This document shows, piece after piece, positions 15,675 to 20,173 of a stretch of 25,940 nucleotides of DNA (positions are counted from its first letter, which is position 1; every line of letters starts with the position of its first letter). Source of the DNA: a virus. The stretch lies in the IMG/VR virus record IMGVR_UViG_3300044679_000153, positions 1 through 25,940 of that record; one strand, written 5' to 3'. Made by a program: the position numbers and the translations under genes. The notes under the pieces are model-generated. The model had not been told where the DNA came from. It made no database searches and saw only the letters and a list, made by a program, of their open reading frames with translations.

Positions 15675-15679
15675 TCTGT

Positions 15680-15809
15680 GAAGGGTGAAAGCTGTTGGGT
15701 AACAGACGGAAAAGCAAAGTCGCTGTGGGAGAGACGTAATCTTTCCTCAACCGTCCAATAAGTCTATCCGGTGGGTCGACACACGGGGGTTCGAGTCCTC
15801 ACACCCTTC
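15680..15809 (+). ncRNA. tRNA-like RNA with an enlarged middle domain
   Basis: GAAGGGTG (15680-15687) pairs with CACCCTTC (15802-15809) as an 8-bp acceptor-like stem. Before the 3' strand lies GGGGG-TTCGAGT-CCTCA (15785-15801), a normal T-loop with a mostly paired stem. CTGT-TGGGTA-ACAG (15692-15705) looks like a D-arm with the GG of the D-loop. The part between D-arm and T-arm is 79 nt, far more than an anticodon arm plus variable loop. It contains GACGG/CCGTC (15705-15709 with 15751-15755) and GGAGAG/CTTTCC stems, and I find no convincing anticodon loop. No CCA is encoded. It could be an interrupted or decayed tRNA, or a tRNA-mimic RNA. Confidence 0.5.
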
Positions 15810-15828
15810 TTTTCAAGGTAGAATGTAA

Positions 15829-16646: not shown

Positions 16647-19600
16647 ATGAGTGTTACAACCACTGGAAATTTGGGGCCAATGATTCTCCAAAGCCTTGCA
16701 CCTGCAATGCTTTACGTCCCAACTCCAACAATGAATTATATTTTGGTATGCGACAAAGTGTCCATGCCAGTAAATGGAGGGACAACATGTCGCTTTATGC
16801 GGCCTCGCGCCCTACAACCACCAACTGTACAGTTGGGTAATAGCGGGATCGATGAAACTAGGTGCGTCGATGTAAAATCTGCTCTAATTGACTTGGAACT
16901 CCCTCTGGGACAACAAGGCGCAAGCCGAATGGCAGCGTGAACGACTTAACGAGTGGACTCGAAAGAGATGCGAAAGTCTGATCTCATAGGTAACTATGAG
17001 AAGGGGATCCGAAGAGGTTCCCTCGCCTTACAAGCTGCGGGTCAAAAAAGTAACAGATTGCCACCCGCCCAAGTGCCTCAACGCGACATCATCGATTTAG
17101 GCGCAAATGGCGTTCTTCGGTACGGGCTGTATCATAAATGAACAAGTGATATTGCAAGACCAAGAGGGTTATAGTTTTATAGCAGCTTAACAAGTATTTG
17201 TGCATAAATAGTACACCATGGTAGAATTTCAGTCAAAAGGAGTTCGCCATGAAGGAAGAAATAGATATGGCATATGCAGCGGGGATTTTAGATGGAGATG
17301 GAAGTTTTTCTTTACTTCTTCATAGAAGTGTAACTAAAAGTTCCTGGAGATCTTTTTATCATCCCTGTATTCAATTATCTAATGCATTTAAGGGGATGTC
17401 GGAATGGTTGCATGAAAAGTTTGACGGGTCTTTGAGGATTAAAAAACCACAACAACCTCATCATAAAACTCTTTATGTTTGGTCATTACGATCCAAAGAA
17501 AAGTGCAGTAATTTGATTGAAAGAATTTACCCATATCTTAAATTGAAAGGCGCTCAAGCAAAGTTAATGTTAGATTTTATCAAATCCGATCATTTCGATA
17601 TGGTGGCCGGGGAAAGATTTAATTTGAAAATGAAAGATTGTAATAAAGAAATATTGTTTAACCCAAAAGGGTATAATACACAATCTCTCGTTGATAGTAA
17701 AGATCCTATTTTTTGGTCTTACTTTGCTGGAATCATGGACACGGAAGGTTCTTTTTCATTTAAAAAAGAAAAAGCACATTCTGGGAGTGTATCTAAAAGA
17801 TATAATCCAATGATACAACTCACGATGATATCTTCTTCATGCATAAATTATATAAGAGAAAATTATTCTGGAGGCAGTTTTTGCGTTCCAAAAGCAAAAT
17901 CCGTTGGAAAGGGATATGCCTACAAAATGAATTTATGTGGTAGAAATGCTTGCCTGACATTTGTAAAGCACATTCTTCCCTATTTAAAATATAAGAAAGA
18001 TCAAGCTTCCTTGATTTTGAAATTTTGTGAGGAAAATAAGACTGTGAGAGATTGCAGAAATGGAATCCCTCCTGAAATATTGAAATTTAGGGAAGATTTG
18101 TATCAACAAATGAGACTGCTAAACAAATAACACGCCCTCTTAGCTTGGTGTGAATGGTGTTAGCATGGGTATCCGAAAGGTTAGCCGTGGCAATGCGCCA
18201 AGCCGAGGATTAAAATAAGTCCTCGATAAACCGACTCTAATCGACTTGGAAGCCCGGTGGGGTGACAAGGGCGAAGGTGTAAACCGCGCTGAACGACTAA
18301 ACGAGTTGGCCCGCAAGGGATGCGATAGTCTGAACCGCAACTATACATGAAATTGCGGAGGCCGATCCGAAGAGGTCGGCCCGCCTAGCAATAGGTCACA
18401 AAAGTAACAGAATGCTTATTTTACGAGACTATATTGTCTCCGCAGCTAGCGAGATTAACGCTGGTGGTGGGGCCAACGGTAGAAATGTTGCCGTTGTAAA
18501 ATCTTCTCTAATTGACTTGGAGTTCCTAGCAGCTTAGGCTGAAGGATAACAAGGGGCAAGATGAATATGAAAGATTGTGAAGATAAAAATTCGGAGAATT
18601 ACTTCATGTGCCATATGACACAAGAAGAGTTTGAAGAAAGAAGCCGTGGAAAAGAGATGTCTCCCCATGATTTCAATATGATTCAGCCTGACAGCAGTAA
18701 GCGAGAAGACTTTTATCAAAAATTAGCTAAAGAATATTTGGATGATAGAGAATATTGGGAACTAGGCCCATCGGAAAGAATATCCATTGAATGCTTTGCT
18801 AGTTGGTTAGATAGAAGATGCGGTACTCGGACCCCATGAGTAATCATGGGAGGCGCGTGCAATAGGCGCGCTCGCCAGTTGTGCCAAAAATGGGTACGGT
18901 TGGTCTGTAGGAATGGAAAGTTATGAAGGGACACAACGTCAGGATCGTTGTGAGTGCGTCAGGATCGCACGATTCCCTTCTTTTTGGTAAGTAAGGAAAC
19001 ATGATAATTATCCTTATCATAACAAGTGAGTGAAAATGGGTTTTTACTGTTGTTGCGATGCTAAAATCTCTGCTGGGGAAGGATGCTCATGTAATTGGGA
19101 AGGATGGACAAAAATCCACGGTCCCGATGATCGGCCTAAGATCTCCGGAACGTATTTAGTGAGAGTTTGCGACAATAGCGCTGATAAATGGGAACAGGAG
19201 ATGGAATATTCGGTTAAACCATATAGAATGGATAAACCTTATTATGGGCCTCCGTTTCCTATACATTGGAAAGATACTTCATGGGATGGCAATGTCGTCT
19301 ATGCATGGAAACCTGTTAACCAACAAACCATTCCGAAAGTAACAGAATAGGACAACCCGACTAACCTCGGGGTCTCAGATTTTAGTCTCGTAGCGGCAAC
19401 GTTGGATACCAACAATGCCTATAAATTCATGTCCGGTATTGAGGGCATGGACAGGTTTAACGAACCAGACCTGGATAAATCTTGGGTAATTGACTTGGAG
19501 TTCCTAGCAGCTTAAGCTGAAGGATAACAAGGGGCAAGCGACGAAAGTTTGCAGCCTGAACGACTTAACCCTGAGACCTCGAAAGAGGATGCGAAAGTCT

Positions 19601-20173
19601 GAACTCGTGGGTAACTACGAGAGAGCGATCCGAAGAGGTTGCTCCGCCAGTAGGTGAAAAATTGTAACCCACTGGTCAATATGACGAAATCTTGCGTCAA
19701 CATAATTGTGACGTAAAATTGCGTCAGAAGTAACAGAGAGTGGTACCGGCCCTGTGCGTTCAGCATACTTCATGCTGTCTAGCACCGAGCTGCAACCAGA
19801 TTTCGACGCTCTCACTGGTAGTGGGTTCCTATCTCAATGGAACTATCCTACCAATAGTTCCGCGCTGCCTTCAGAATACGGGTCTGTTTACAACATCCGT
19901 ATCCTGACAAGCTCGGAAGCGCCTGTAGCTCGTGGTGCTAGTGCTAACGACCGCGATGTTTACTACAACACTGTTGTTGGTAAGCAAGCGATCACGCACA
20001 TCAACCAGGACGGGTATTCAATGAACTTGATATACCGCGATCCCTACTATTCTGGAATGCTCGCGCAAAATGCTACCCTGGCGGTTAAATTCGCTCAGGC
20101 TCAAGCTATTACGCAAGATACAGCCATCAGAAACCTTCTGTGCACCCGCGCAGGTAACCAACAATACTTGTGA
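16647..20173 (+). CDS. major capsid protein, split into six exons by five intervening sequences
   Basis: Exons: 16647-16853, 17061-17169 (containing TTAG at 17097-17100 that must be skipped), 18157-18210, 18415-18480, 19351-19457 and 19741-20173. Joined without TTAG they give 972 nt, 323 residues and a stop. Landmarks follow the N4-gp56-like capsid family across every junction: LGNSGID/PPAQVPQRDIID/AQMAFFGTGCIINEQVILQDQEG, then VLAWVSERLAVAMRQAED, then LILRDYIVSAASEINAGGGANG, then DNPTNLGVSDFS, then IEGMDRF/GTGPVRSAYF, ending in a long C-terminal domain (STELQPDFDAL, DGYSMNLIYRDPYYSGMLA). The protein builds the icosahedral shell with the scaffold. No Shine-Dalgarno is seen before the ATG. Exon joins are inferred from P1/P10 pairing and the remembered family pattern, not from RNA data. 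Confidence 0.85.
16854..17060 (+). ncRNA. group I intron 1 of the capsid gene, 207 nt, no ORF
   Basis: The 5' exon ends ATCGAT (16848-16853) and pairs with guide GTCGAT (16866-16871), with the required U.G at the splice site. Core blocks shared with introns 3 and 5 are TAATTGACTTGG (16885-16896), P7 strands ACGACTT (16941-16947) and AAGTCT (16973-16978), a GTAA-capped P9 hairpin (CTCATAG/CTATGAG), GATCCGAAGAGG and AGTAACAG near the end. The intron ends at G17060, giving frame-correct GID/PPA. P10 pairing to this exon has a mismatch at the first base and then four pairs. Confidence 0.85.
17097..17100 (+). other. frame-breaking TTAG in capsid exon 2, candidate 4-nt excised segment
   Basis: Codons for RDIID end at 17096 and AQMAFFGT starts at 17101 in another frame; only loss of TTAG (or of one base) joins them. 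TTAG follows ATCGAT, the same hexamer as the 5' splice site of intron 1, and ends in G as group I introns do. The intron 1 guide GTGCGTCGAT (16862-16871) pairs with all ten bases of ATCGAT+GCGC. It may be a segment removed by the intron 1 ribozyme, or a mutation or sequencing error. Confidence 0.5.
17170..18156 (+). mobile_element. intervening sequence 2 with LAGLIDADG gene and guide but no own ribozyme core
   Basis: The 5' exon ends AAGAGGGT (17162-17169) and the 3' exon starts GTGTTA (18157). A 14-nt guide TAACACGCCCTCTT (18128-18141) matches the ligated exons over all 14 pairs, including the U.G at the splice site, so the boundaries are firm. The endonuclease gene fills the P1 loop and its TAA is part of the guide. 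After the guide only 15 nt remain. None of the core blocks of the other introns is found inside the element. A P2-like stem (18143-18152 with 18194-18203) reaches across exon 3 to the core of intron 3. Confidence 0.75.
17249..18130 (+). CDS. LAGLIDADG homing endonuclease, two-motif
   Basis: This 293-residue monomeric LAGLIDADG enzyme has motif 1 AYAAGILDGDG (8-18, catalytic Asp17) and motif 2 SYFAGIMDTEG (157-167, catalytic Glu166), each followed by a beta-rich DNA-contact half-domain (FYHPCIQLSN, RYNPMIQLTM). Such enzymes cut an intron-less allele at a long site and leave 4-nt 3' overhangs, which spreads the intron; some also help RNA splicing (maturase). AAGGAG six bases before the ATG indicates its own translation start. 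It lies within the P1 loop of intervening sequence 2 and its stop codon TAA is part of the splice guide. Confidence 0.93.
   Translation: MKEEIDMAYAAGILDGDGSFSLLLHRSVTKSSWRSFYHPCIQLSNAFKGMSEWLHEKFDGSLRIKKPQQPHHKTLYVWSLRSKEKCSNLIERIYPYLKLKGAQAKLMLDFIKSDHFDMVAGERFNLKMKDCNKEILFNPKGYNTQSLVDSKDPIFWSYFAGIMDTEGSFSFKKEKAHSGSVSKRYNPMIQLTMISSSCINYIRENYSGGSFCVPKAKSVGKGYAYKMNLCGRNACLTFVKHILPYLKYKKDQASLILKFCEENKTVRDCRNGIPPEILKFREDLYQQMRLLNK
18211..18414 (+). ncRNA. group I intron 3 of the capsid gene, 204 nt, no ORF
   Basis: The 5' exon CGAGGAT (18204-18210) pairs with guide GTCCTCG (18219-18225), seven pairs ending in U.G. Core blocks are TAATCGACTTGG (18238-18249), P7 strands GACTA (18295-18299) and TAGTC (18326-18330), a P9 hairpin CCGCAA.../...TTGCGG, GATCCGAAGAGG and AGTAACAG. 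It ends at G18414, so AED joins LILRDY. P10 is formed by TTATTTT of the exon and AAAATAA of the guide with the first exon base bulged. It may also serve intervening sequence 2. Confidence 0.85.
18561..18839 (+). CDS. 92-residue intron-encoded protein of unknown function, overlapping the ribozyme core
   Basis: The start ATG follows AAGGGG within the P5/P6 part of the intron. The protein is acidic and hydrophilic (EFEERSRGKEMSPHDF, EYLDDREYWELGPSERI) and resembles no homing endonuclease family I know. Its codons include both strands of the intron P7 helix, so the ORF is threaded through the catalytic core: the 5' P7 strand falls near residues 45-49 and the 3' strand in the last codons (RCGTRTP). 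Either the ORF is a lucky open frame or both functions are kept. Moderate confidence. Confidence 0.45.
   Translation: MNMKDCEDKNSENYFMCHMTQEEFEERSRGKEMSPHDFNMIQPDSSKREDFYQKLAKEYLDDREYWELGPSERISIECFASWLDRRCGTRTP
18925..18980 (+). ncRNA. three-way-junction RNA with two identical 7-nt loops inside intron 4
   Basis: GAAGGGA (18925-18931) pairs with TCCCTTC (18974-18980) and encloses two hairpins: CACAACG-TCAGGAT-CGTTGTG (18932-18952) and GTGCG-TCAGGAT-CGCAC (18954-18970). Every stem base is paired and both loops are TCAGGAT. TTTTT follows. It lies between the intron core and the second ORF. It may be a peripheral domain of the ribozyme, a terminator-like element or a protein-binding site. Confidence 0.7.
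19030..19350 (+). CDS. intron-encoded small protein with Cys-rich start and DUF551-like part
   Basis: The start may be GTG 19030 or ATG 19036; no strong ribosome binding site is visible. The protein (104-106 residues) begins with a cysteine cluster (FYCCCDAKISAGEGCSC) and continues WTKIHGPDDRPKISGTYLVRVCDN ending VVYAWKPV. The W-x-x-I...P-x-x-x-G-x-Y-L-V...W-x-P layout resembles DUF551-type phage proteins of unknown function. It is not a recognised endonuclease. The last codons GTA ACA GAA TAG lie in the conserved intron end, and the TAG stop is exactly the last three intron bases. Confidence 0.6.
   Translation: MKMGFYCCCDAKISAGEGCSCNWEGWTKIHGPDDRPKISGTYLVRVCDNSADKWEQEMEYSVKPYRMDKPYYGPPFPIHWKDTSWDGNVVYAWKPVNQQTIPKVTE
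19458..19740 (+). ncRNA. group I intron 5 of the capsid gene, 283 nt, no ORF
   Basis: The 5' exon CAGGTT (19452-19457) pairs with guide GACCTG (19468-19473), six pairs ending in U.G, and P10 is TGGT with ACCA. Core blocks are TAATTGACTTGG (19487-19498), P7 strands GACTT (19562-19566) and AAGTC (19595-19599), P9 CTCGTGG-GTAA-CTACGAG and GATCCGAAGAGG. Unlike introns 1 and 3 it carries an extra 3' extension with two tandem hairpins. It ends at G19740 and splits a Phe codon (TT/T), so it is a phase-2 intron. Confidence 0.85.
19682..19726 (+). repeat. two tandem 18-nt hairpin repeats in intron 5
   Basis: TGACG-(8 nt)-CGTCA occurs at 19682-19699 and 19709-19726, with similar loops (AAATCTTG and TAAAATTG). 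They form two small stems just before the conserved intron 3' end. The same inverted pair TGACG...CGTCA, with a 12-nt spacer, occurs upstream of the capsid gene at 16581-16602. Confidence 0.65.

Follow-up and report, generated by a model that had tools for sequence, protein, structure and literature searches.

Candidate natural trans-excision-splicing of one- to four-nucleotide inserts by a group I intron in phage capsid genes

Introduction

How can a phage make its capsid protein from a gene whose reading frame is broken by four extra nucleotides? The question is raised by a 25,940-base IMG/VR record, analyzed over its whole length and referred to here as the window, which represents a P22-like podophage with a portal protein (PF16510), a large terminase and a major head protein (phrog_1357). 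Its major capsid protein (MCP) gene is interrupted and spans positions 16647–20173. A sequence-only reading had claimed that TTAG at 17097–17100 breaks the MCP frame between RDIID and AQMAFF, that the preceding ATCGAT repeats the 5' splice-site hexamer of intron 1, and that removal of TTAG yields a coding length of 972 nt. The strings and coordinates all proved correct: the hexamer occurs at 16848–16853 and 17091–17096, and with all six inserts out, the coding sequence is 972 nt long with a single terminal stop. The same reading proposed that intron 1 itself removes TTAG.

Group I introns are known as self-contained elements, and to our knowledge excision of the kind proposed is known only from laboratory ribozymes. 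Such trans-excision-splicing (TES) ribozymes were reportedly described by Bell in 2002 and by Baum and Testa in 2005. They require a terminal G in the excised segment.

Results

Organization of the capsid gene

The MCP inserts were placed by codon-level spliced alignment to 24 uninterrupted relatives, and their boundaries were refined under the requirement that the spliced protein stays unchanged. This yielded six inserts in the window, all on the plus strand: 207 nt (codon 69.0), 4 nt (81.0), 987 nt (103.67), 204 nt (122.0), 870 nt (143.67) and 283 nt (179.67). Exon 1 (16647–16853, codons 1–69) ends in ATCGAT and is followed by intron 1 (16854–17060), the proposed ribozyme. The putative micro-intron TTAG divides exon 2 into exon 2a (17061–17096, codons 70–81, PPAQVPQRDIID), which ends in the second ATCGAT, and exon 2b (17101–17169, codons 82–104). 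The 987-nt insert, here called 'intron 2' (17170–18156), is preceded by U, ends in G and holds a LAGLIDADG homing endonuclease ORF (17249–18130; PF00961, 2.4e-8; phrog_5046, 3.8e-33). Exon 3 (18157–18210), intron 3 (18211–18414), exon 4 (18415–18480), intron 4 with internal ORFs (18481–19350), exon 5 (19351–19457) and intron 5 (19458–19740) lead to exon 6 (19741–20173), which carries the stop and matches phrog_1357. No relative of this last exon was found in cultured phage genomes at 1e-5; the phages carrying these capsid genes are uncultured.

Ahead of the gene, at 15678–15810, the window contains a tRNA-like outline that extends over about 130 nt and includes an internal stretch (GAAGGGTG ... 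GGGGGTTCGAGTCCTC ... CACCCTTC), where ARAGORN reports no tRNA.

Group I features of intron 1

Since an Rfam scan of the whole window gave no match at E ≤ 1, we built a covariance model, R1, from the family of intron 1. Twenty-one short introns of this family align to the standard group I fold and share P1, P3, P4, P5, P6, P7 with its bulge, and P8. In the alignment, 97% of 676 pair cells are paired, the covariation score is 0.628 versus 0.188 for shuffled sequences, and compensatory changes are seen in 24 of the 33 pairs, including a P7 pair (116/157) that covaries between A-U and G-C around the bulge. Rfam model RF00028 scores intron 1 at 15 bits, below its gathering score. In the window, R1 locates cores at 16872–16982 (intron 1, 105.6 bits), 18225–18334 (intron 3, 114.8 bits) and 19474–19603 (intron 5, 89.8 bits), and weakly at 18496–18596 (intron 4, 28.6 bits, E 0.004); overall, its matches are confined to the capsid gene and its surroundings (39 loci). 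Intron 1 also follows the group I end rule, with the 5' exon U opposite a guide G and G as the last intron base, and its 3' end at 17060, GTAACAGATTG, is normal for the family. Its predicted fold and covariation identify intron 1 as a genuine member of group I.

Recurrence of the micro-insert

Spliced alignment of the window to intronless relatives puts the 4-nt insert exactly between codons 81 and 82, where all intronless relatives read through an unbroken LGNSGIDPPAQVPQRDIIDAQMAFFGTGCIINEQV. Scanning IMG/VR with the last MCP exon gave 80 relatives, and among the loci aligned, an insert at the same bond was found in L027, L038, L044 and L055, as well as in L056 and L057, which are near-identical copies of L055. 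A second scan, which required 1–25 nt between ATCGAT and GCNCARATG and did not require the intron, added four lineages (L087, L088, L091 and L092). The nine lineages, the window included, carry inserts of 4, 4, 2, 2, 2, 1, 1, 1 and 1 nt that read TTAG, TAAG, AG, TG, AG or G, and all nine inserts are preceded by U and have G as their last base, the ends seen in 130 of the 132 inserts of the MCP gene. The 1-nt form also occurs in a MAG contig from a different collection (L178). On this comparison, a fresh mutation or an error is excluded as the source of TTAG.

Guide pairing and association with the codon-69 intron

The guide of intron 1, GTGCGTCGAT at 16862–16871 (GTGC.GTCGAT), was confirmed to match all ten bases of the junction ATCGAT+GCGC; it can form P1 with both ATCGAT sites and P10 with the GCGC that follows TTAG. 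The claimed P10 mismatch at the first base of the intron's own 3' exon is likewise present, although the next four bases pair. With P1 extended, the pairing between guide and junction in the window becomes 7+4. An equal fit was reached by 5 of 2000 dinucleotide shuffles of intron 1, and no other insert of the window pairs comparably with the TTAG junction. The guide pairs all ten junction bases in each of the nine lineages (1–20 of 2000 shuffles do equally well), reading GTGC, GCGT or GTGT and then GTCGAT, and the geometry described for the window, with P1 on the 5' side, P10 on the 3' side and an excised segment ending in G, recurs in all of them. Where the exon has GCAC instead of GCGC (L055 and L092), the guide is a matching GUGU with U at the facing base. 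Covariation of P10 with the micro-site is modest because the guide bases also serve the 3' exon of intron 1 itself.

The insert and the intron also occur together. In all nine micro-insert lineages, codon 69 carries a group I intron (intron 69; intron 1 in the window), which always lies 36 nt upstream of the insert and has the same ATCGAT 5' splice site. Conversely, the micro-insert is present in all five distinct intron-69 loci of the unbiased set and in none of the aligned loci that lack intron 69 (Fisher p 4e-8, uncorrected for kinship). The four loci new from the intron-blind scan each carry both, and the two coincide in L178 as well. Mapped onto a tree built from the last MCP exon, the pair requires five changes, so that intron and micro-insert seem to move together; for a test by independent pairs, the tree offers too few well-supported branches. 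Given the kinship among the nine lineages and the apparent horizontal movement of intron and micro-insert, these counts are not independent.

Taken as a whole, the comparison supports removal of TTAG by intron 1, with nearly all predictions that could be tested borne out, and we consider natural trans-excision-splicing by intron 1 to be the best explanation of the insert and a highly probable one.

Coreless inserts upstream of core-bearing introns

R1 detects no catalytic core in 'intron 2' (17170–18156), which nevertheless has a perfect guide of its own at 18128–18141, composed of taacac (P10) and GCCCTCTT (P1) and forming 14 pairs. Such coreless inserts were seen in about 40 relatives. Mini-inserts of 30–75 nt lie at codons 87.67, 91.67, 103.67 and 113.67, and codon 103.67 also holds long ones of 325–987 nt. 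Some of the coreless inserts contain a LAGLIDADG ORF, as the 987-nt insert of the window does. None of the 28 mini-inserts and six long inserts contains an R1 core, whereas every one has its own contiguous P1+P10 guide of 11–15 pairs with U.G at the cut. The guides change with the exons (GTATTA/TAATAC; GTGTTA with TAACAC or TAACAT; GTACTT/GAGTAC), and the guide GCTGCGT is found in the coreless inserts of L181 and L182. By a core of their own, neither TTAG nor the coreless inserts can be assigned to group I, and the micro-inserts (1–4 nt) and mini-inserts (30–75 nt) are too short to hold one.

Each coreless insert is directly followed by a core-bearing group I intron (13 site combinations), and the distance between the two is within about 100 nt of exon. 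A coreless insert lies upstream in 35 of the 37 loci with a core intron at codons 94–123 and in 0 of the 44 loci without one. Scans for mini-inserts only gave the same pairing with a core intron wherever the contig was long enough, MAG contigs included, and where the contig covers the region, no coreless insert lacks a downstream core. The loci L060 and L076 are about 98% identical over several kb (93–99% by segment) except at codons 76–124, where L060 carries three inserts and divergent exon sequence (L060 4056–6378 versus L076 3031–3987). By this comparison, L060 records a recent homing event, its co-conversion tract apparently having brought core and coreless inserts together. We read the coreless inserts as non-autonomous group I introns that would be spliced by the core of a neighbour, and TTAG is the apparent extreme of this series.

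Inspected by eye, mini-inserts at codon 87.67 show apparent pairing between their tails and the exon sequence immediately behind them (ATTATGC/GCATAAT, GATTACG/CGTAATC, GTTGATG/CATCAAC; L078 5316–5400, L005, L046, L020, L043, L016, L019 and L033), an arrangement in which the loop of a hairpin would hold the 3' splice site.

Read-through endings of the inserts

When read in frame from the upstream exon, many inserts end in two alanines and a stop. In the window, read-through of intron 1 ends in SRMAA-stop (16854–16940) and that of 'intron 2' in SFIAA-stop (17170–17192), and intron 4 (18481–18537) and intron 5 (19458–19515) both end in LEFLAA-stop. Of 28 mini-inserts, 25 have such an in-frame AA-stop ending; all six long inserts have one, as do 41 of the 91 core introns. 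The commonest forms are LAA, MAA, IAA and CAA. In the other frames of the mini, long and core inserts there were none among 250 readings, and over all stops in six frames of 80 loci the AA-stop share is 0.3%.

Beyond codon 60, core introns directly behind a coreless insert lack an AA-stop ending of their own in 32 of 34 cases, while those with no coreless insert upstream have one in 35 of 37 (p 2e-15 for the complementarity, uncorrected for kinship). We take the AA-stop ending to be an ssrA-like degron, on the model of ssrA tags. On the simplest reading, truncated capsid protein translated from unspliced RNA would thereby be marked for ClpXP-type proteolysis, and an intron without the tag could have it provided by the coreless insert in front of it. 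A shared tag makes sense only if both inserts are removed together, and the complementarity therefore lends independent support to a functional tie between them.

Reading frame around the micro-insert

Across the nine lineages, codons 70–94 contain 22 variable sites in 75 nt and encode one identical peptide, PPAQVPQRDIIDAQMAFFGTGCIIN, whereas in the other two frames the sequence varies and stops are present. Changes are exclusively synonymous in codons 82–94 and mostly so in codons 186–310. In every one of the nine lineages, it is the ancestral frame that leads into the AA-stop ending of the next downstream insert, which indicates that translation reaches codon 104 in that frame. A shifted 3' end of intron 1 was considered as a source of frame compensation and rejected: in the window it runs directly into a stop codon (ATT TAG), and the synonymous changes in codons 70–81 would become nonsynonymous.

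The 1-nt lineages (L038, L044, L055 and L091) lack one base at codon 95, where AAT-GAR-CAG has become AAT-AR-CAG (L038 5104–5112, L044 4582–4590, L055 4584–4592), so that removing the G alone would leave codons 95–104 out of frame. With the G retained, reading runs to a stop, and the +1 insert and the −1 loss cancel in length. A search among excisions preceded by U and ending in G gave no consistent or convincing guide for a second repair at codon 95. The 5' sides of the micro-site and the codon 95 site are nearly alike (ATCATCGAT and ATCATCAAT), which makes re-insertion of the excised G conceivable; that it is put back at codon 95 in these lineages is speculation on our part. The five 2-nt and 4-nt lineages, among them the window, are free of the codon 95 loss.

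Discussion

Proposed mechanism

For TTAG, which is without a guide or core of its own, we infer that excision acts on the RNA, in the order and by the mechanism set out below. The intron 1 guide, 5'-GUGC.GUCGAU-3', would pair with the AUCGAU before the insert to form P1, with U.G at the cut, and with the GCGC behind TTAG to form P10, while the terminal G of TTAG would substitute for omega-G. The RNA would be cut behind AUCGAU, the resulting 3' end would attack behind the G, and ligation would join RDIID to AQMAFF. The agent could be the intron still in the transcript, acting in cis, or the freed intron acting in trans, of which we judge the freed form more likely. The coreless inserts (30–987 nt) would bring P1 and P10 themselves and borrow the core of the adjoining downstream intron; for 'intron 2', catalysis would come from intron 3. 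The wider picture is one of two-tier natural splicing, in which catalytic group I introns excise guide-only inserts of 30–987 nt and guideless inserts of 1–4 nt, with AA-stop endings serving as degrons that keep truncated capsid protein from accumulating, and we regard it as probable.

Laboratory TES ribozymes work through contacts at P1, P10 and P9.0, and their removal of single nucleotides is documented both in vitro and in E. coli (PMC6155759). They are inefficient in cells (PMC6155759), and set against the high protein demand on a capsid gene, this counts against trans-excision-splicing here.

Alternative explanations

A 4-nt frame break in one contig would normally be read as a sequencing or assembly error, or as the mark of a dead gene. 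We consider this extremely improbable here, given that the same-bond insert is found in ten IMG/VR contigs besides the window and in one MAG contig, and that the codons behind it show the synonymous changes described above, in codons 82–94 exclusively and in codons 186–310 for the most part. It is conceivable that the insert stays in the mRNA and that the ribosome frameshifts over it or bypasses it, as programmed frameshifts occur in phage structural genes and a +1 step after UUA in the window would yield IIDLAQM. Against this, 4-nt and 2-nt inserts call for different shifts, so that no single shift rule fits, and L027 meets an immediate stop (GAT TAA). For a bypass, the take-off codon GAU finds no match, the triplets before GCG being TAG, AAG, TTG and ATG. 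A ribosome would, moreover, need neither intron nor guide, yet the insert is tied to both, and the adjoining coreless inserts run to 987 nt with stops and an ORF. We therefore think decoding by the ribosome quite unlikely.

The guide itself could be taken to argue for a longer intron 1 that ends at the G of TTAG, since the ATCGAT before the intron and the GCGC after TTAG are its best joint fit and the product is in frame; PPAQVPQRDIID would then be skipped in the protein. The skipped codons 70–81, however, vary only synonymously, encode an identical peptide in the nine lineages and are present in all intronless relatives, and the family-normal 3' end GTAACAGATTG is already reached at 17060, which makes such an intron very unlikely. 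Finally, something other than the adjacent intron might remove the micro-inserts and coreless inserts from the RNA, such as an enzyme of the phage or its host, or a core located in another part of the genome or the cell: which core acts is assigned by sequence comparison, and the window represents only 25.9 kb of its genome. This we hold to be very unlikely, because no micro-insert is seen away from intron 69, which has the fitting guide, because every coreless insert lies upstream of a core intron and within about 100 nt of exon, and because the R1 cores lie in and around the capsid gene.

Relation to known systems

Degenerate introns of groups II and III rely on a core supplied in trans. They resemble the inserts described here in being reduced and in drawing catalysis from elsewhere but differ in ribozyme class, and we know of no natural group I counterpart. 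The T4 gene 60 bypass and the mitochondrial byp elements remain part of the mRNA and work only with matched codons for take-off and landing; they, too, are short non-coding inserts in genes that do not stop protein synthesis, but the matched codons are absent at the micro-insert site. Nor do we know of a coreless partner or a micro-insert in the group I introns of T4-type phages.

Phage group I introns with HEGs, in T4 and relatives (PMC2988022), share with the present ones the kind of host gene, the HEGs, the U and G ends, P1 and P10, and the core fold. The TES ribozymes of the Testa laboratory (PMC6155759) place P1 and P10 around a short segment ending in G, as proposed here, and act on segments down to 1 nt, one-nucleotide excision having been reported in E. 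coli; they are engineered, whereas here a natural substrate and its candidate ribozyme would lie in one gene, with a guide that also serves the intron itself. Spliceozymes (Amini et al. 2014, PMC4094466) use a group I core to cut roughly 100 nt of inserted sequence out of a separate RNA, which is what we propose for the coreless inserts, but these constructs are engineered and define the 3' site via P9.2, while in our case the insert itself carries the P1+P10 guide. In trans-spliced group I introns (Isoetes, Trichoplax and Helicosporidium cox1; PMC2813288), separate pieces are likewise at work; there, one core is split, whereas the present case pairs a core-bearing insert with a coreless one, with excision proposed for both.

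In the open-access literature, outside which most subscription journals fall, we found neither natural trans-excision-splicing nor coreless group I introns nor intron-encoded degrons described. If our interpretation is correct, this would be the first natural trans-excision-splicing known to us, and no intron known to us would be smaller than the micro-inserts. The system would then offer a group I model for introns that give up catalysis and rely on a shared ribozyme, a parallel to the step, frequently invoked in accounts of how the spliceosome arose, from self-splicing introns to a shared catalyst. Where translation is coupled to transcription, the conserved AA-stop endings suggest, introns evolve degrons directed against the protein products of unspliced RNA.

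Members of the same phage family were also found in MAGs (L178–L184), under labels of which some are probably binning errors: Chlamydiia, Simkania, Patescibacteria, Peregrinibacteria, Bacteroidales, Pseudomonadota and Nitrospiraceae.
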